Both the position numbers and the translations under genes were made by a program. This document shows, piece by piece, positions 9,997 through 59,763 of a DNA stretch of 64,000 nucleotides (the stretch's first letter is position 1; each line of letters starts with the position of its first letter). The notes beneath the pieces are model-generated. The model ran no database searches, had not been told where the DNA came from, and saw only the letters and a program-made list of their open reading frames with translations. The stretch comes from a virus: positions 1 through 64,000 of the IMG/VR virus record IMGVR_UViG_3300022413_000008; one strand, written 5' to 3'.

Positions 9997-11169
9997 ATGA
10001 GTGATACACTAAGACAACCCACACAAGGCGCACTGACGCCTGACAGCGCATCGGTAAGCACCTCGGAGGCGTACCGGCAATGGGCAAGCCGCCCGGAAGA
10101 CGAGCGCTACAGCGACCTCGAATCCCTGTTCGACGCATGCGCCTCACGGCGAACCCGATCACGTGAGGTTCACGTTGAAACGGACAAGCTTCAGGTCAAG
10201 CAGCATGAGGCGACCGGCGAGCTGGTGATCAATGGCGAAACATCCGAATCGAAATGGACTCATTGGAGTTTTGGCCAGACTTGCAATCTGGTTGGGGCGC
10301 CAGCGAAATACCTGCGCGATCTTCCGGATGTCCTGATCAGAGCCAACCTGACCTACGGGCTGGCAACCCAACGGGAAACGATGAAGTTCATGACTGTCCA
10401 GCCTGATAATGACACCGAGCAGCTCAGCACGCTGCAGGCTGTCACGTCGACTACTTACGGACGGATATGGGACGCTGACTGTGTCAAGGCATGCCAGCAC
10501 ATCGTGGAGCGATCCAATGGGCGGTTCCACAACCCACTGGCTTATGCGGCGGGCGACTACATGGGGCACAAAGGCACGGAGCCAAGGCCGTCAGGTCTCT
10601 ACGCCTCCGATCGTGATGTGTTCATGTTCATGATCGACGGCGGCTCACTGTTGGAAGCTGGGCCTCGGGCCAAACTCAACCGGGGGTTCTTCATGTGGAA
10701 CAGCGAGGTTGGCTCGCGATCGTTCGGATTGATGACGTTCCTATTCAACCAGGTCTGTGGGAACCATCTGATCTGGGGTGCGCAGGACGTAAACAAGATC
10801 ATCATCCGCCACTCGTCCGGTGGGCCATACCGGTTCGAGACCGAAGGGACGCCAGCGCTGAAGCAGTTCGTGGAGGCGCCGGCTGCCCCGATTGAGGAAG
10901 TCCTCCGCAAAGCACAAGACTACATGCTGCCTGTCCGGATGGACGGAGACGAGGAGAAGAGCATGCGTGAGTTTGTTGCGAAACGCGCCAAGTTCTCCGC
11001 CGCTGAGGTAAGGGATGCCATGAAGTTTGCGAGAGCCGAGGAAGGCGAATGTCGCACCTTGTGGCAGCTCGTGCAGGGTTTCACTGCGTCGGCACGTGCG
11101 ATCCCACACATGGACACTCGGATCGACCTCGAGAAGCGAGCGGGCAAGCTCATGTCGTTCGCTGAATAG
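9997..11169 (+). CDS. DUF932 (phage/plasmid-like TIGR03299) protein, 390 aa
   Basis: Full-length member of the DUF932 family found in phages, plasmids and integrative elements. Recognisable stretches include RSREVHVETDKLQV near residue 55, KFMTVQPDNDTEQL, and the N-H-L-I-W-G block around residue 257. The family lacks an established biochemical role; its spread among mobile elements suggests a function in DNA metabolism or defence interaction. Its 3' end is included in a tandem duplication that leaves a decayed copy behind it. Confidence 0.85.
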   Translation: MSDTLRQPTQGALTPDSASVSTSEAYRQWASRPEDERYSDLESLFDACASRRTRSREVHVETDKLQVKQHEATGELVINGETSESKWTHWSFGQTCNLVGAPAKYLRDLPDVLIRANLTYGLATQRETMKFMTVQPDNDTEQLSTLQAVTSTTYGRIWDADCVKACQHIVERSNGRFHNPLAYAAGDYMGHKGTEPRPSGLYASDRDVFMFMIDGGSLLEAGPRAKLNRGFFMWNSEVGSRSFGLMTFLFNQVCGNHLIWGAQDVNKIIIRHSSGGPYRFETEGTPALKQFVEAPAAPIEEVLRKAQDYMLPVRMDGDEEKSMREFVAKRAKFSAAEVRDAMKFARAEEGECRTLWQLVQGFTASARAIPHMDTRIDLEKRAGKLMSFAE

Positions 11170-11316
11170 TCACTGACAACCAACTAACGACCATTGGGGA
11201 AACCAATTGGACAACAATCGAAAGAGAAAGGCAAGCTCATGTAATTCGATGAATAGGCAGCGACAACCAACTAACGACCATGGGGGAGACCAATTGAACA
11301 ACAATCGAAAGAGAAA
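11143..11316 (+). repeat. 87-bp tandem duplication, two copies
   Basis: 11143-11229 and 11230-11316 agree at roughly nine positions in ten. Each begins with GGCAAGCTCATG (end of the DUF932 gene), then GACAACCAACTAACGACCAT and AACAATCGAAAGAGAAA. The second copy retains a broken gene end (GKLM, stop, FDE, stop). The spacer part resembles the leader repeat of the left arm and ends next to the following start. Confidence 0.85.
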
Positions 11317-11319
11317 AAC

Positions 11320-11694
11320 ATGGATAATGCAGAGCTAATACTTAAACTTCTGAAGCTATTACCGAACGAAGACAACGAACAGAATCCTCAGAGCGATTCT
11401 GAGTGTGAAATGAACCCCATCACTGGCACGGTGCTGAGATCCGTCGTTTACCCGGGTGCGAAAGTGCTGATCAGGACAGTGACCAGCTACTTCGCGGGAG
11501 TGGTGAGTGAGGTGGACGACCACTTCATCGCATTGGCACACGCTTCGTGGGTTGCTGACACGGGACGTTTCTCGGACGCGCTAAAGAGCGGGTCATTCAC
11601 CGAGGTGGAGATGTATGATCGGGCCGTGATCGTCGCCGTGGCCGCCGTGGTTGACGTGACGACCCTTCCGGAGGTTCCTGCGAAGCAGAAGTAG
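11320..11694 (+). CDS. Conserved phage hypothetical protein, 124 aa
   Basis: The core GAKVLIRTVTSYFAGVVSEV, then HASWVADTGRFSDALKSGSF, matches a family I have seen in many phages, with a strand-rich fold and a terminal VVDVT strand. The role is not established. The N-terminal 30 residues are acidic and variable. The start is placed right after the tandem duplication, with GAAAGAGAAA as ribosome binding region. Confidence 0.75.
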   Translation: MDNAELILKLLKLLPNEDNEQNPQSDSECEMNPITGTVLRSVVYPGAKVLIRTVTSYFAGVVSEVDDHFIALAHASWVADTGRFSDALKSGSFTEVEMYDRAVIVAVAAVVDVTTLPEVPAKQK

Positions 11695-11784: not shown

Positions 11785-12078
11785 ATGACGTATCTAGCGA
11801 GTCGGGCATGTTCAAATGCACGGGCAGAATCAAGGTCACTGACACAGGAACTTGCGCTGTCACGGTCACGGTCACGGACAGGATCGTGGTCACTGGCATG
11901 GTCTTTCTCATGGTCACTGGAAAGGGCATGGGCACGGGCATGGTCACAGTCAAGGGCAGGGTCACAGGCAGGGTCGGAGGCAGGGGCGCTGTCACGGTCA
12001 ACGACAGTGTCGTGGTCACATTCACGAACATGTTCAATGTCACTGTCATGGGCACGGCCAAGGAGGTTTCTAATATGA
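11785..12078 (+). CDS. Ser/Arg/Trp dipeptide-repeat protein A, 97 aa
   Basis: First of five related ORFs. GGAGG precedes the ATG. The shared start is MTYLAS; the body is repeated S-R, S-W and A-W pairs made by a degenerate GGTCAC-type hexamer. Its stop TGA overlaps the next ATG (ATGA). All reading frames are unusually open here, so coding is judged from starts, ribosome binding sites and coupling. No family recognised. Confidence 0.45.
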   Translation: MTYLASRACSNARAESRSLTQELALSRSRSRTGSWSLAWSFSWSLERAWARAWSQSRAGSQAGSEAGALSRSTTVSWSHSRTCSMSLSWARPRRFLI

Positions 12079-12311
12079 CGTATCTAGCGAGTCCGTCATG
12101 GCCATCATCACGATCGCGATCATCGCACCGGTCACGTTCAGTGGCCGGGTCAGGGCCATCATCACGATCGCGATCATCGTACCGGTCACGGTCAGGGGCA
12201 TGGGCACGGTCATGGTCCCGGTCAATGACAAGGATACGGTCAGGGGTAGGTTCATGGGTAAGGTCAGGGTCACGGGCAACGTCATGTCCCGATAAGAAAG
12301 GCACGATATGA
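12075..12311 (+). CDS. Ser/Arg/Trp dipeptide-repeat protein B, 78 aa
   Basis: Starts at an ATGA overlap, with AGGAGG nine bases before the ATG, the best ribosome binding site of the five. MTYLASPSW then Ser/Arg-rich repeats; ends [12 protein letters not shown]. The DNA of this ending recurs in protein C. A Val/Thr/Ile-rich frame is also open over the same DNA and ends at the TAA at 12295. Confidence 0.45.
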   Translation: MTYLASPSWPSSRSRSSHRSRSVAGSGPSSRSRSSYRSRSGAWARSWSRSMTRIRSGVGSWVRSGSRATSCPDKKGTI

Positions 12312-12514
12312 CATATCTAGCGAGTCCGGATGAGCCCTGTTCGAAGGCATCAGCAAGGTCATGGACAGGGTCACGGTCAGGGGCAGGGACACGGTCATGG
12401 GCAAGGACACGGTCATGGGCAAGGGCATGGTCATGGGCAGTGGCAGGGCCACGGGCATGGTCAAGGTCAGGGTCACGGGCAACGTCATGTCCCGATAAGA
12501 AAGGCACGGCATGA
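12308..12514 (+). CDS. Ser/Arg/Trp dipeptide-repeat protein C, 68 aa
   Basis: ATGA-coupled. [19 protein letters not shown], then Trp/Arg/Ser repeats, ending [12 protein letters not shown]. An alternative start at 12330 opens a Gly-His/Gly-Gln frame ([15 protein letters not shown]) that continues into the next cassette, so the coding frame is not settled. Confidence 0.45.
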
Positions 12515-12708
12515 CGTATCTAATGAGTCGGGGTGCGCCCTGTTCGAGGGCATCAGCACGGATGAAGCATGGCACCCGGTCGTGGGCAAAGTCACGGACA
12601 GGTACACTGTCGCTATCACTCACATTCGCATGGTCGTGGGCATGGTCAATCACACGGGGGTGCGCATTCAATCGGTCACGATCACTAGGTAAAAAAGGTT
12701 TGTTATGA
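12511..12708 (+). CDS. Ser/Arg/Trp dipeptide-repeat protein D, 65 aa
   Basis: ATGA-coupled. [19 protein letters not shown], with the fewest repeats of the five, ending [12 protein letters not shown]. In another frame this cassette reads [18 protein letters not shown], which looks like ordinary protein, so it may preserve the ancestral sequence from which the repeats expanded. Confidence 0.45.
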
Positions 12709-12947
12709 CGTATCTATCGAGTCCGGGTGAGACCCGTTCGAAGGCAGCATCAAGGTCATGGACAGGGCCACGGTCATGGACAGGGCCACGGTCATGGGCA
12801 AGGTCGGCATGGTCAAGGTCATGGTCACGGTCACGATCAGGATCCTTGGCATGGTCACGGTCATGGTCATGTTGCCGGTCAAGGTCATGTTGCCGGTCAC
12901 GGGCATGGTCACTGGCAGGGGTATGGTCGTGGTCACAGGCAAAATGA
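12705..12947 (+). CDS. Ser/Arg/Trp dipeptide-repeat protein E, 80 aa
   Basis: ATGA-coupled to [20 protein letters not shown], followed by Trp/Ser/Arg repeats with two S-C-C-R-S units. Its TGA again lies in an ATGA. A Gly-His frame from a GTG at 12727 stays open into the conserved gene downstream and could be an N-terminal extension of it. Confidence 0.45.
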
Positions 12948-12951
12948 TTCA

Positions 12952-13164
12952 ATGGCCATGAGCGCACGAGGGGTCGAGGTTCTCTGTCAGATCTCGGCCC
13001 CTCACTTTGTCGCGGGGATTGTGGCTTGCAATGGCCGGGTTACTCATGCCGCACCGATCGTGCGTTACATGATTGGCTGGACTGGCAAGCAACTTCGGGA
13101 TTACTGTAGGAAGAAATCATGGACAATCACCGTAATCACGAAGACCCAAGAAATCCGCAGTTAG
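12952..13164 (+). CDS. Conserved phage hypothetical protein, 70 aa
   Basis: The core [18 protein letters not shown] and [19 protein letters not shown] is a pattern I know from many phage small proteins of unknown role. Starts at 12952 or 12958; the frame is also open back to 12727 through the Gly-His repeat. Encoded just before the recombination genes. Confidence 0.7.
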
Positions 13165-13517
13165 AACCACTCCTCCGGTTTGCTGAGAAGAAGATCCTAC
13201 GCCACCGGTGCATCGCCTGCCAGGAAAAAACAGGTAAAGAGGAGACCATGCCGATCAAGAAGACTCAAGACCCACTCGCCCCGGACACCACGGCTGATGT
13301 GACTTGGGGCCTGTGTCCTAACTGCCAGGCCATCATCGATGAGAAAGGCACCATTATTTTCTGTGATGGGCAGCGGTCCAGATGCGCCACGTTTAAGCAA
13401 GAATTAGCCGGCCGGCTCTTCAAGCCCGAGGCCCTAGGCCAGTGTCTGAAAGTAACATCTGCTGAGTTTGACGTGCTTGAAGAGACGTGCCGGAAAATGG
13501 CACAAGAAAAAGGTTGA
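13119..13517 (+). CDS. Cysteine-containing hypothetical protein, 132 aa
   Basis: ATG at 13119 overlaps the preceding gene by 46 bases; an alternative ATG at 13248 follows GAGGAG and would give 89 residues. The long form has CIAC near residue 32 and CPNC near residue 66 with a later Cys pair, suggesting zinc binding. Function unknown; the start is uncertain. Confidence 0.6.
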
Positions 13518-13543
13518 CAGTTCGAAACCCCTGGCGCTATTGT
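13514..13543 (+). promoter_or_regulatory. Possible sigma-70-type promoter
   Basis: TTGACA (13514-13519), 18 bases, TATTGT (13538-13543). A start about seven bases later would fall on the ATG at 13550, which lacks a clear ribosome binding site, so a leaderless transcript is possible. It lies before the recombination module. Judged by motif only. Confidence 0.4.
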
Positions 13544-13549
13544 GCCGGT

Positions 13550-14500
13550 ATGTCTGAACACAACGATCTTGAACTCATCTCCTCGGCCGAGTCCGTCAAT
13601 GCTATCGAACGGGCGCAAATTGACACGCAGGTAGCGACGGCCAAGAAATACCCTCGTTCCCTATCAGAGGCTAAAAAACGCATGCTGGACGTGGTTCAGC
13701 TAGACCAGGAGACGGCAGCTGCCTGCTTCTACACCCTTCCAACCCGACGAGGCGGGGACAAGCCTATCCAGGGGCCGAGCATCCGCCTCGCAGAGGTAGC
13801 GATAGCCGCGTATCAGAACCTGTCGGCGGGCGCACGAATCGTCGCCGATGACGGCAACTTTGTCACGGCCCAGGGAATTTGCTTCGACATGGAGAATAAC
13901 ACTCGGATCACAATGGAGGTCAAGAGACGGGTAGTGGACAAGAACGGCAGAAGGTATTCAGAGGACGTAGTCGGAACCACGATGAACGCCGCTTGTGCCA
14001 TCGCTCTTCGGAATGCTGTGCTCAAGGTTATCCCTGGCGCTTTGGTTAAGCCTGTCTACGAGAAGGCATTAGAGTTTGCTGTAGGGGATCAGAAGACACT
14101 GGCGATGCGGCGGGCAAAAGCGGTGAAGCATTTCGTGCAGATGGGGGTAGAGGAACCTCGAATCTTTGCGGCAATTGGTGTCCGGGGCCTAGAGGAAATA
14201 GGGATCGAAGAGCTTACGGTTCTCATGGGGTTGCACACTGCGATTACTGATGGGGCGTCAACTCTTGACGAAGCTTTCCCGGAACTTAGCACACCCAAGA
14301 AGTCAGGGCTCACTGATCCGCCACCACCACAGCCTGCGCCGCCGCGCAAGCGCAAAACCAAGGCAAAAGCCACCGAGGCACCACCACCCGAACCTGAACC
14401 CGAACCCGAACCCGAACCCGAACCCGAACCCGAACCCGAACCAGAACCAGAAGAACTGGCAGGGACTCCTCCGGACGACGATGAACCACAACTATTTTGA
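13550..14500 (+). CDS. Probable phage recombination protein with Glu-Pro repeat tail, 316 aa
   Basis: The pattern LDQETAAACFYTLPTRRGG, IQGPSIRLAEVAIAAYQNL and TMNAACAIALRNAVLKVIP belongs to a widespread phage protein family encoded beside exonucleases and SSBs, and thought to act in single-strand annealing or recombination. This assignment is from memory and context, not from a decisive motif. After about residue 250 come Pro-rich and Lys-rich segments, then about 11 Glu-Pro pairs and an acidic end. The family core stops before these, so the tail is an add-on, perhaps for partner binding. Neighbours are nucleases and SSB. Confidence 0.65.
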   Translation: MSEHNDLELISSAESVNAIERAQIDTQVATAKKYPRSLSEAKKRMLDVVQLDQETAAACFYTLPTRRGGDKPIQGPSIRLAEVAIAAYQNLSAGARIVADDGNFVTAQGICFDMENNTRITMEVKRRVVDKNGRRYSEDVVGTTMNAACAIALRNAVLKVIPGALVKPVYEKALEFAVGDQKTLAMRRAKAVKHFVQMGVEEPRIFAAIGVRGLEEIGIEELTVLMGLHTAITDGASTLDEAFPELSTPKKSGLTDPPPPQPAPPRKRKTKAKATEAPPPEPEPEPEPEPEPEPEPEPEPEELAGTPPDDDEPQLF

Positions 14501-58794: not shown

Positions 58795-59763
58795 TTAGGC
58801 CACTCGATTGAGTGTCATTGCACAATCCTGAACGGTCGCGGCCGAAGTGTCAGTCTCATTCTGCATCCACAATTCAACCGTATCCCCAGCGGTAAGTGTG
58901 GCCTGGGCAGCTACTACCGCAGAACCGATGTCCCCACCTGTCCCTAACTTCCGAGTTGTGCGAGCCCCTAGCTGCGTCGCCCCATTGTTCTTGAAAAACG
59001 CAAGGGAATAGGTATCGCTAGTCCCGCCTGAGAACGACACTGCGGCAACCATCTCGTAATCCCCATTTGCACCTACAGTAATATGATCATTCGTGTGGTC
59101 TGGCGTCGCATTGTTTGAAGGACCATTTGTGTCGAAAACAGTAATCTGGCTAGCATTTGAAAAATCAGAGCTTGAGCCAGCAAAAGTCGTCGTTGTTGCG
59201 TTGCTCTCGACCTCTAGCGAACCGTGTGCATTGGGAAGATTATTCGCAGCGATCGTTCCAGCTCCTGGGGAAGACCAGTCAATGTGCTCAGCAGCTACGA
59301 AGTTCAGTAACGAATCATGATCGATTGAAGCGACCGGGAGATTCGACACATCAATCGTGCCTGCCGCAACACCTGTCCAATCAATGTGCTCAGCAGCCAG
59401 GAAGTTCAGTAGCGAATCATGATCGATGGAAGCGACTGGGAGATTCGACACATCAATTGTGCCTGCCGCAACACCTGTCCAGTCAATGTGTTCGGCAGCT
59501 ACGAAGTTCAACAACGCATCATGATCGATGGCTCCCGGGACAAGCGTCCACTCAATGACACTGCCATTCAGCGCGATCGTTATCCCCCCAGAAACAGACG
59601 CTACCGGCCGGAATTGAAGATCCACGGCCAGCTTGGAATCAAAAATGCCAATGCCTCCCCCAAGGTTCGACGCCGTGTTGGCCTCGCCCGAACCAGCAAC
59701 AGCCGGAGGAGGCATCAATCGCGTAACCTCGGACGCGTTCCCGTCAAAATACAGCATGTTCAT
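58795..59763 (-). CDS. Fibre protein with three 34-residue repeats and C1q-like end, 322 aa
   Basis: N-terminal attachment region to about residue 78, three repeats at 79-112, 113-146 and 147-180 (IDHDSLLNFVAAEHIDW core), then a beta-sandwich end with DYEMVAAVSFSGGTSDTYSL and LTAGDTVELWMQNET, the pattern of C1q/TNF-like trimers. A trimeric receptor-binding fibre is likely. Confidence 0.75.
   Translation of the reverse strand: MNMLYFDGNASEVTRLMPPPAVAGSGEANTASNLGGGIGIFDSKLAVDLQFRPVASVSGGITIALNGSVIEWTLVPGAIDHDALLNFVAAEHIDWTGVAAGTIDVSNLPVASIDHDSLLNFLAAEHIDWTGVAAGTIDVSNLPVASIDHDSLLNFVAAEHIDWSSPGAGTIAANNLPNAHGSLEVESNATTTTFAGSSSDFSNASQITVFDTNGPSNNATPDHTNDHITVGANGDYEMVAAVSFSGGTSDTYSLAFFKNNGATQLGARTTRKLGTGGDIGSAVVAAQATLTAGDTVELWMQNETDTSAATVQDCAMTLNRVA
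59224..59529 (-). repeat. Three tandem 102-bp repeats within the fibre gene
   Basis: Each unit encodes 34 residues around D-H-D-S-L-L-N-F and A-E-H-I-D-W. Units 1 and 2 are nearly identical at DNA level; unit 3 diverges at its end. Copy number can change by slippage or recombination and would alter fibre length. Confidence 0.85.

Follow-up and report, generated by a model that had tools for sequence, protein, structure and literature searches.

Several Sm and LSm proteins act together with disordered partners. In Escherichia coli Hfq, RNA binding by the Sm-type core is tuned by a disordered, acidic tail that competes with nucleic acid on that core (PMC5606850). The phage locus described here would share this plan of an Sm-type core with a disordered tail, but it differs from Hfq in that the tail is a separate, sometimes multi-copy gene, that a sequence match to Hfq is absent, and that ring and RNA binding of the phage protein are what we infer. 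Archaeal SmAPs and eukaryotic Sm/LSm proteins, including the LSm14/Edc3 scaffolds, are the best structural matches of both phage protein models that we built; unlike them, the phage protein has no detectable sequence family match, is phage-encoded and has an alternating-dipeptide microprotein as its partner. A related Pfam family, DUF6948 (PF22253), exists as a name only. In the open-access literature, which is what our search covered, we found no paper on DUF6948 or on such a pairing of gene and microprotein, and no published description of a two-gene module that is widespread across very different phages. Proteins built from two alternating amino acids are as a rule written off as artefacts of annotation; in this case they accompany a folded gene as its conserved partner.

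The window, a stretch of 64,000 bases, comprises positions 1-64,000 of a 73,174-base viral record with phage genes for a terminase, a helicase loader, an exonuclease and a structural protein, of which the exonuclease gene lies within the window and local to the module. The features discussed below, all on the + strand, are:

11320..11694, +, gene of the predicted Sm-fold ('RTVT') protein, 124 aa, the module's first gene; homologues adjoin arrays in 34 other array loci among the matches listed

11785..12078, +, cassette 1, an ORF for a ([S/A/T]-[R/W/G])n microprotein of 97 aa, with a GGAGG-type ribosome binding site (RBS) and an ATGA overlap with cassette 2

12075..12311, +, cassette 2, ORF of 78 aa with a GGAGG-type RBS

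12308..12514, +, cassette 3, ORF of 68 aa with the upstream site AAGAAAGG

12511..12708, +, cassette 4, ORF of 65 aa with the upstream site AAGAAAGG; its repeat is the most degraded of the five

12705..12947, +, cassette 5, ORF of 80 aa with the upstream site AAAAAAGG

12944..12961, +, 5-codon ORF MIQWP, read from the sequence and ATGA-chained to cassette 5 and to the gene at 12958-13164

12958..13164, +, downstream gene (MSARGVEV...) for a conserved small phage protein (APHFVAGI...), with 17 viral relatives that lack arrays

The five coupled ORFs of the initial annotation were confirmed to the base, with starts at 11785, 12075, 12308, 12511 and 12705, a last ATGA at 12944 and spacings of 290, 233, 203, 194 and 239 bases. 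Its near-identical MTYL starts are present in all five cassettes, which open with ATGAC(G/A)TATCTA, and each start is preceded by an RBS of the types given above. That all spacings equal 2 modulo 3, which had been taken as a sign of selection on the Ser-Arg/Ser-Trp (SR) frame, is true but does not constitute independent evidence, because each ORF ends at the next ATGA. Similarly, the hexamer repeat is real, but its unit is better given as GGNCAN, with variable bases at positions 3 and 6, than as GGTCAC. Across the five cassettes, the SR frame contains no internal stop, compared to 17 in the Gly-His frame and 5 in the Val-Thr frame. The alternation of [S/A/T] with [W/R/G] exceeds that of all 2000 codon shuffles in every cassette, and that of the best cassettes is equalled by no ORF outside the locus.

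Relatives were sought at several levels. A first BLAST matched an unannotated repeat near gogB in Gifsy-1, a tblastn search of phages with the repeat peptide gave no match, probably due to masking, and the MTYL start pattern yielded three chance-like matches in viral contigs, without arrays. Scanning viral contigs for seven GGNCAN units, we obtained at least 120 matches, and among those listed two classes could be distinguished: Gly-Gln linkers inside long unrelated proteins, and ORFs of about 40-110 codons in the Ser-Trp/Arg/Gly frame (e.g. MNTAVLRTGFDRSWSGSRSGSG), with an ATG shortly before the array and usually an RBS. Tandem cassettes sharing one N-terminus, as in the window, were found among these listed matches in contigs L053, L094, L065, L036, L111 and L124. 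The Gly-Gln linkers in unrelated long phage proteins (L051, L054, L060, L088, L109) are a trap for pattern-based searches. When the neighbours of 41 array loci from the listed matches were clustered, one gene family was present in 35, the window included, on the same strand and typically about 200 bases upstream of the array. This is the family of the 11320-11694 gene, which is single-copy in the 73-kb record. It is characterised by the motif IRTVT..TG..V......L..AAWIADTGRF, and a second branch lacks this motif and keeps the pattern (LLGKNVTFFCLNYIYTGKLVGVNDTFVKLE). The listed RTVT proteins end in ...LPRxQK or similar ahead of the microprotein, with no disordered tail in the same polypeptide. 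Compared to Pfam, PHROGs and NCBIfam, RTVT and the microproteins gave no family, only weak matches covering few members.

As the array matches had been picked by DNA pattern, they are uninformative on codon use. Viral contigs were therefore searched using nothing but the RTVT alignment, and loci with at least 500 bases were counted (n=69). A strict alternating-Ser peptide lies directly downstream of RTVT in 63 of these 69 loci. The corresponding counts are 11 for the upstream side, 2 for positions further downstream and 11 for the opposite strand; some of the upstream peptides are genuine additional cassettes, and the set includes a few near-duplicate loci. Of 62 unique loci, 56 have an S-X microprotein, one a G-like one, and five no recognisable microprotein. 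Serine is encoded in the RTVT-found set by TCG (1135), TCA (371), AGC (297), TCT (212), AGT (122) and TCC (24), and the residue alternating with Ser is R, G or W, encoded almost without exception as NGG. Within one phage the Ser codon is uniform (mean 93%), and between phages it changes, the dominant codon being TCG in 35 loci, TCA in 13, AGC in 8, TCT in 5, AGT in 3 and TCC in one; this includes the TCN/AGY switch, which is beyond any single synonymous change. Since the Ser codon differs between phages and the S-X alternation stays, conservation lies in the peptide pattern rather than in the GGNCAN hexamer or the Gly-His frame. The arrays seem, on these sequences, to have been re-expanded repeatedly at the DNA level with the peptide pattern kept; this pattern persists across very different phages despite wholesale codon replacement. 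The proposed selection on the Ser-Arg/Ser-Trp frame is thereby supported, in relatives chosen without any DNA-pattern criterion. We had initially preferred the Gly-His frame, because its third codon positions are where the variable bases lie, but the TCG, AGC, TCT and AGT units of relatives ruled it out. Metal binding in that frame, which the initial annotation had entertained, is excluded as a general reading, since the frame does not survive in TCG or AGC units. GGTCAN as a conserved DNA element or iteron was also discarded, given that the unit differs between phages and the peptide does not.

Of 57 unique loci, 32 have a microprotein start that overlaps the RTVT stop by 4 bases (ATGA), and in 6 more the overlap is a single base; in relatives the S-X-frame ORF is constant, but the ATGA coupling is common rather than universal. 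Genome contigs contributed eight MAG loci, and a plasmid search gave no match. Comparison shows that the five ORFs are repeats in tandem of one low-complexity microprotein, and that this microprotein is the second member of a conserved module of two phage genes. That this module exists and that its microprotein is read in the Ser-Arg/Ser-Trp frame we regard as virtually certain. No phage family of such microproteins had been known to the initial annotation; they have turned out to be no orphans, but a widespread phage gene class paired with a predicted Sm-fold gene.

A tblastn match in Vibrio phage IKEMa6-1 led to a second family: the relative found there fits Pfam DUF6948 (E 1.6e-30), and a (G-[Y/S/D])n protein is encoded behind it. 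Comparison of RTVT and DUF6948 profiles with hhalign gave a probability of 97.7 and an E of 1.8e-12 over 64 columns, the N-terminal helix included, and the Pfam DUF6948 model did not match the window protein or other RTVT proteins. Judged by their profiles, RTVT and DUF6948 share ancestry, and RTVT is a sister family rather than a member. In DUF6948 phages (e.g. Pectobacterium phages Ymer and Koroua, Iodobacter phage phiPLPE, Vibrio phage IKEMa6-1) the gene has an alternating-dipeptide partner, as RTVT does, and the two share gene order, overlap, the N-terminal helix (MNIDDLTIGQAKEL), profile homology and the predicted Sm fold; they differ in that the DUF6948 partner is acidic and Gly-based, whereas the RTVT partner is basic and Ser-based. 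A (G-[Y/S/D/N])n microprotein lies downstream of DUF6948 in 49 of 50 unique viral loci, upstream in one and further away in none, and by class the microproteins behind DUF6948 are 53 G and one S-like, with one locus having none. Almost without exception, each Sm paralog is paired with one microprotein class; the two deviating cases, one G-like and one S-like, are ambiguous, being SGSG or A/T-rich sequences. Contig L343 carries both paralogs, with almost identical N-termini and each with its own microprotein class, in the order DUF6948, G-X microprotein (whose end switches to S-X), RTVT and three S-X cassettes, with two further S-X cassettes before. Searching E. coli genomes with the DUF6948 locus gave no match. 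The pairing rule offers a way to spot many unannotated or wrongly framed phage ORFs. In Chlorobiaceae phage CV-1-33 (L260:2286-2531), the deposited QOE32032.1 (MAMAMALAMALAM...) is an out-of-frame reading of the (G-[Y/D/S])n microprotein behind DUF6948, and such ORFs are probably annotated out of frame elsewhere too. Two human gut phage contigs (L258:2288-2809 and L261:2267-2836) have a longer, folded-looking protein behind DUF6948, with a short SGYGSGYGDGYG or DGSGYGYGSGSGDGSG embedded near its N-terminus, possibly a fused form of the microprotein.

AlphaFold2 modelled the window protein with a pLDDT of 84 and a core above 90, and in a Foldseek search of the PDB nearly all of its top matches were Sm/LSm proteins (probability ~1.00), led by the archaeal SmAP 1i8f (E 1.5e-3, probability 1.00, TM-target 0.77). 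A separate model of a DUF6948 protein also had a confident core and matched Sm/LSm almost exclusively (best E 2.4e-3). Matches of both models comprise archaeal SmAPs, yeast and human Sm proteins and LSm1-8, as well as LSm14 for the window protein. As the Foldseek E values are modest (1.5e-3 and 2.4e-3 at best), the agreement of the two models outweighs any single score. The 11320-11694 protein is thus predicted to adopt an Sm/LSm fold, with an N-terminal helix and a five-stranded small barrel. Sequence searches of Pfam, NCBIfam and PDB sequences gave no match to an Sm, LSm or Hfq family. The candidate Sm1 Gly is invariant (86 of 86); at the Sm2-like site, Arg occurs in 51 and Gly in 57 of the 86, and the Arg-Gly found there in most relatives is absent from the window protein.

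Based on these models and on the analogy with Hfq, we propose, with a probability of roughly 40%, that the module encodes an Sm-type nucleic-acid-binding core and, in the coupled microproteins, its disordered tail, supplied in trans. The predicted Sm-fold protein would form a ring-like core binding RNA (or single-stranded DNA). Small spacers (S/G/A/T) that alternate with stickers (W/Y, R/D) may allow the microproteins to coat the complex of core and nucleic acid, to bridge it or to condense it; annealing, release or storage of RNA would be tuned in this way early in infection, beside recombination and replication genes, and tandem cassettes would raise the dosage of the tail. The net result would be an Hfq-like core with a fast-evolving tail encoded apart. 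The precedent of the Hfq tail makes the tail-in-trans reading reasonable, and the sticker-spacer composition makes condensation plausible. Aromatic content is about 13% in both microprotein classes. Charge complementarity was considered as a rule and rejected: in the S-type, a core mean of -2.5 is matched by +11 for the microprotein, but in the DUF6948 type both are negative, at about -1 for the core and -7 for the microprotein, and within families no correlation between core and microprotein charge was found. Simple electrostatic contact between tail and core is therefore not general. If the Sm prediction is true, phages encode Sm-type proteins of their own, with the tail supplied in trans, offering a minimal, genetically tractable setting for the role of low-complexity sticker-and-spacer sequences at a nucleic-acid-binding core. 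More tentatively still, the module may represent a new class of phage ribonucleoprotein, in which the disordered tail of an Sm-fold core comes from a gene family of its own. The alternating-dipeptide microproteins of this family are translationally coupled, expand fast and fall into two contrasting chemistries, basic S-[W/R/G] and acidic G-[Y/D/S]; inside the infected cell, such a system would make condensates or complexes that chaperone RNA.

It is conceivable, if rather unlikely, that the Sm-fold protein is only a regulator, one that would bind the mRNA of the array and control how it is translated, with the microproteins hitting a host target, such as a nucleic-acid-binding or defence protein. 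The coupled two-gene layout, the fast change of tandem copies and the early-gene location by exonuclease, RecT/Erf and SSB genes would fit such a function; however, the RNA sequence of the array is not conserved, and the basic S-[W/R/G] and acidic G-[Y/D/S] microproteins each keep their own Sm paralog, which suggests a physical match to the Sm partner. We consider it improbable that the microproteins are structural, assembling into fibres of a beta-rich or silk-like kind, or into a matrix enclosing phage DNA or RNA, and that the Sm-fold protein anchors them: in an extended strand, strict two-residue alternation, common to both classes despite their opposite charge, would line up the small residues along a single face, but late or structural gene context is absent. 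Trp/Arg-rich peptides can have membrane activity, and an overlapping small two-gene operon is reminiscent of a toxin-antitoxin or host-takeover unit, in which the microproteins would harm membranes or ribosomes unless restrained by the Sm-fold protein; this is very improbable, as the sister microprotein class is acidic, glycine-rich and very hydrophilic, and neither partner matches a toxin family in Pfam, PHROG or NCBIfam. Scarcely credible, finally, and by sequence comparison already refuted as a general explanation, is an array acting as a DNA- or RNA-level element (GGTCAN binding sites, a microsatellite) or as a Gly-His metal-binding protein with the SR ORFs as by-products, for although the window's variable bases 3 and 6 are third codon positions of the Gly-His frame and TCA-type arrays are common, the relatives' TCGNGG, AGCNGG, TCTNGG and AGTNGG units abolish both GGNCAN and the Gly-His frame while S-X stays, and it is the SR frame that has ATG and RBS without an internal stop.

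Returning to the surroundings of the module, any other gene family is common to no more than about 10 of about 110 loci. Recombination and replication genes near the module include a RecT-like ORF in contig L251, recognised by reading of the sequence, exonuclease VIII, an Erf-type annealing protein and an SSB in Pectobacterium phage Ymer, and RecE in phiPLPE. The protein of the 12958-13164 gene matched no PHROG family, and this gene probably lies outside the module, because its relatives lack arrays. Searches for relatives of 13119-13517 and an Rfam search of the array region returned no match. In the gene at 13487-14500 (phrog_3657), a hexamer repeat at 14386-14452 codes for a (PE)n stretch close to the C-terminus of the product. 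The window also contains a direct tandem repeat at 11143-11316 (unit 87 bp, 89% identity), which is a duplication of the 3' end of a DUF932-like gene (9997-11169) plus the stretch preceding the Sm-fold gene, and a further tandem repeat at 59275-59531, with a unit of 102 bp, 2.5 copies and 89% identity.
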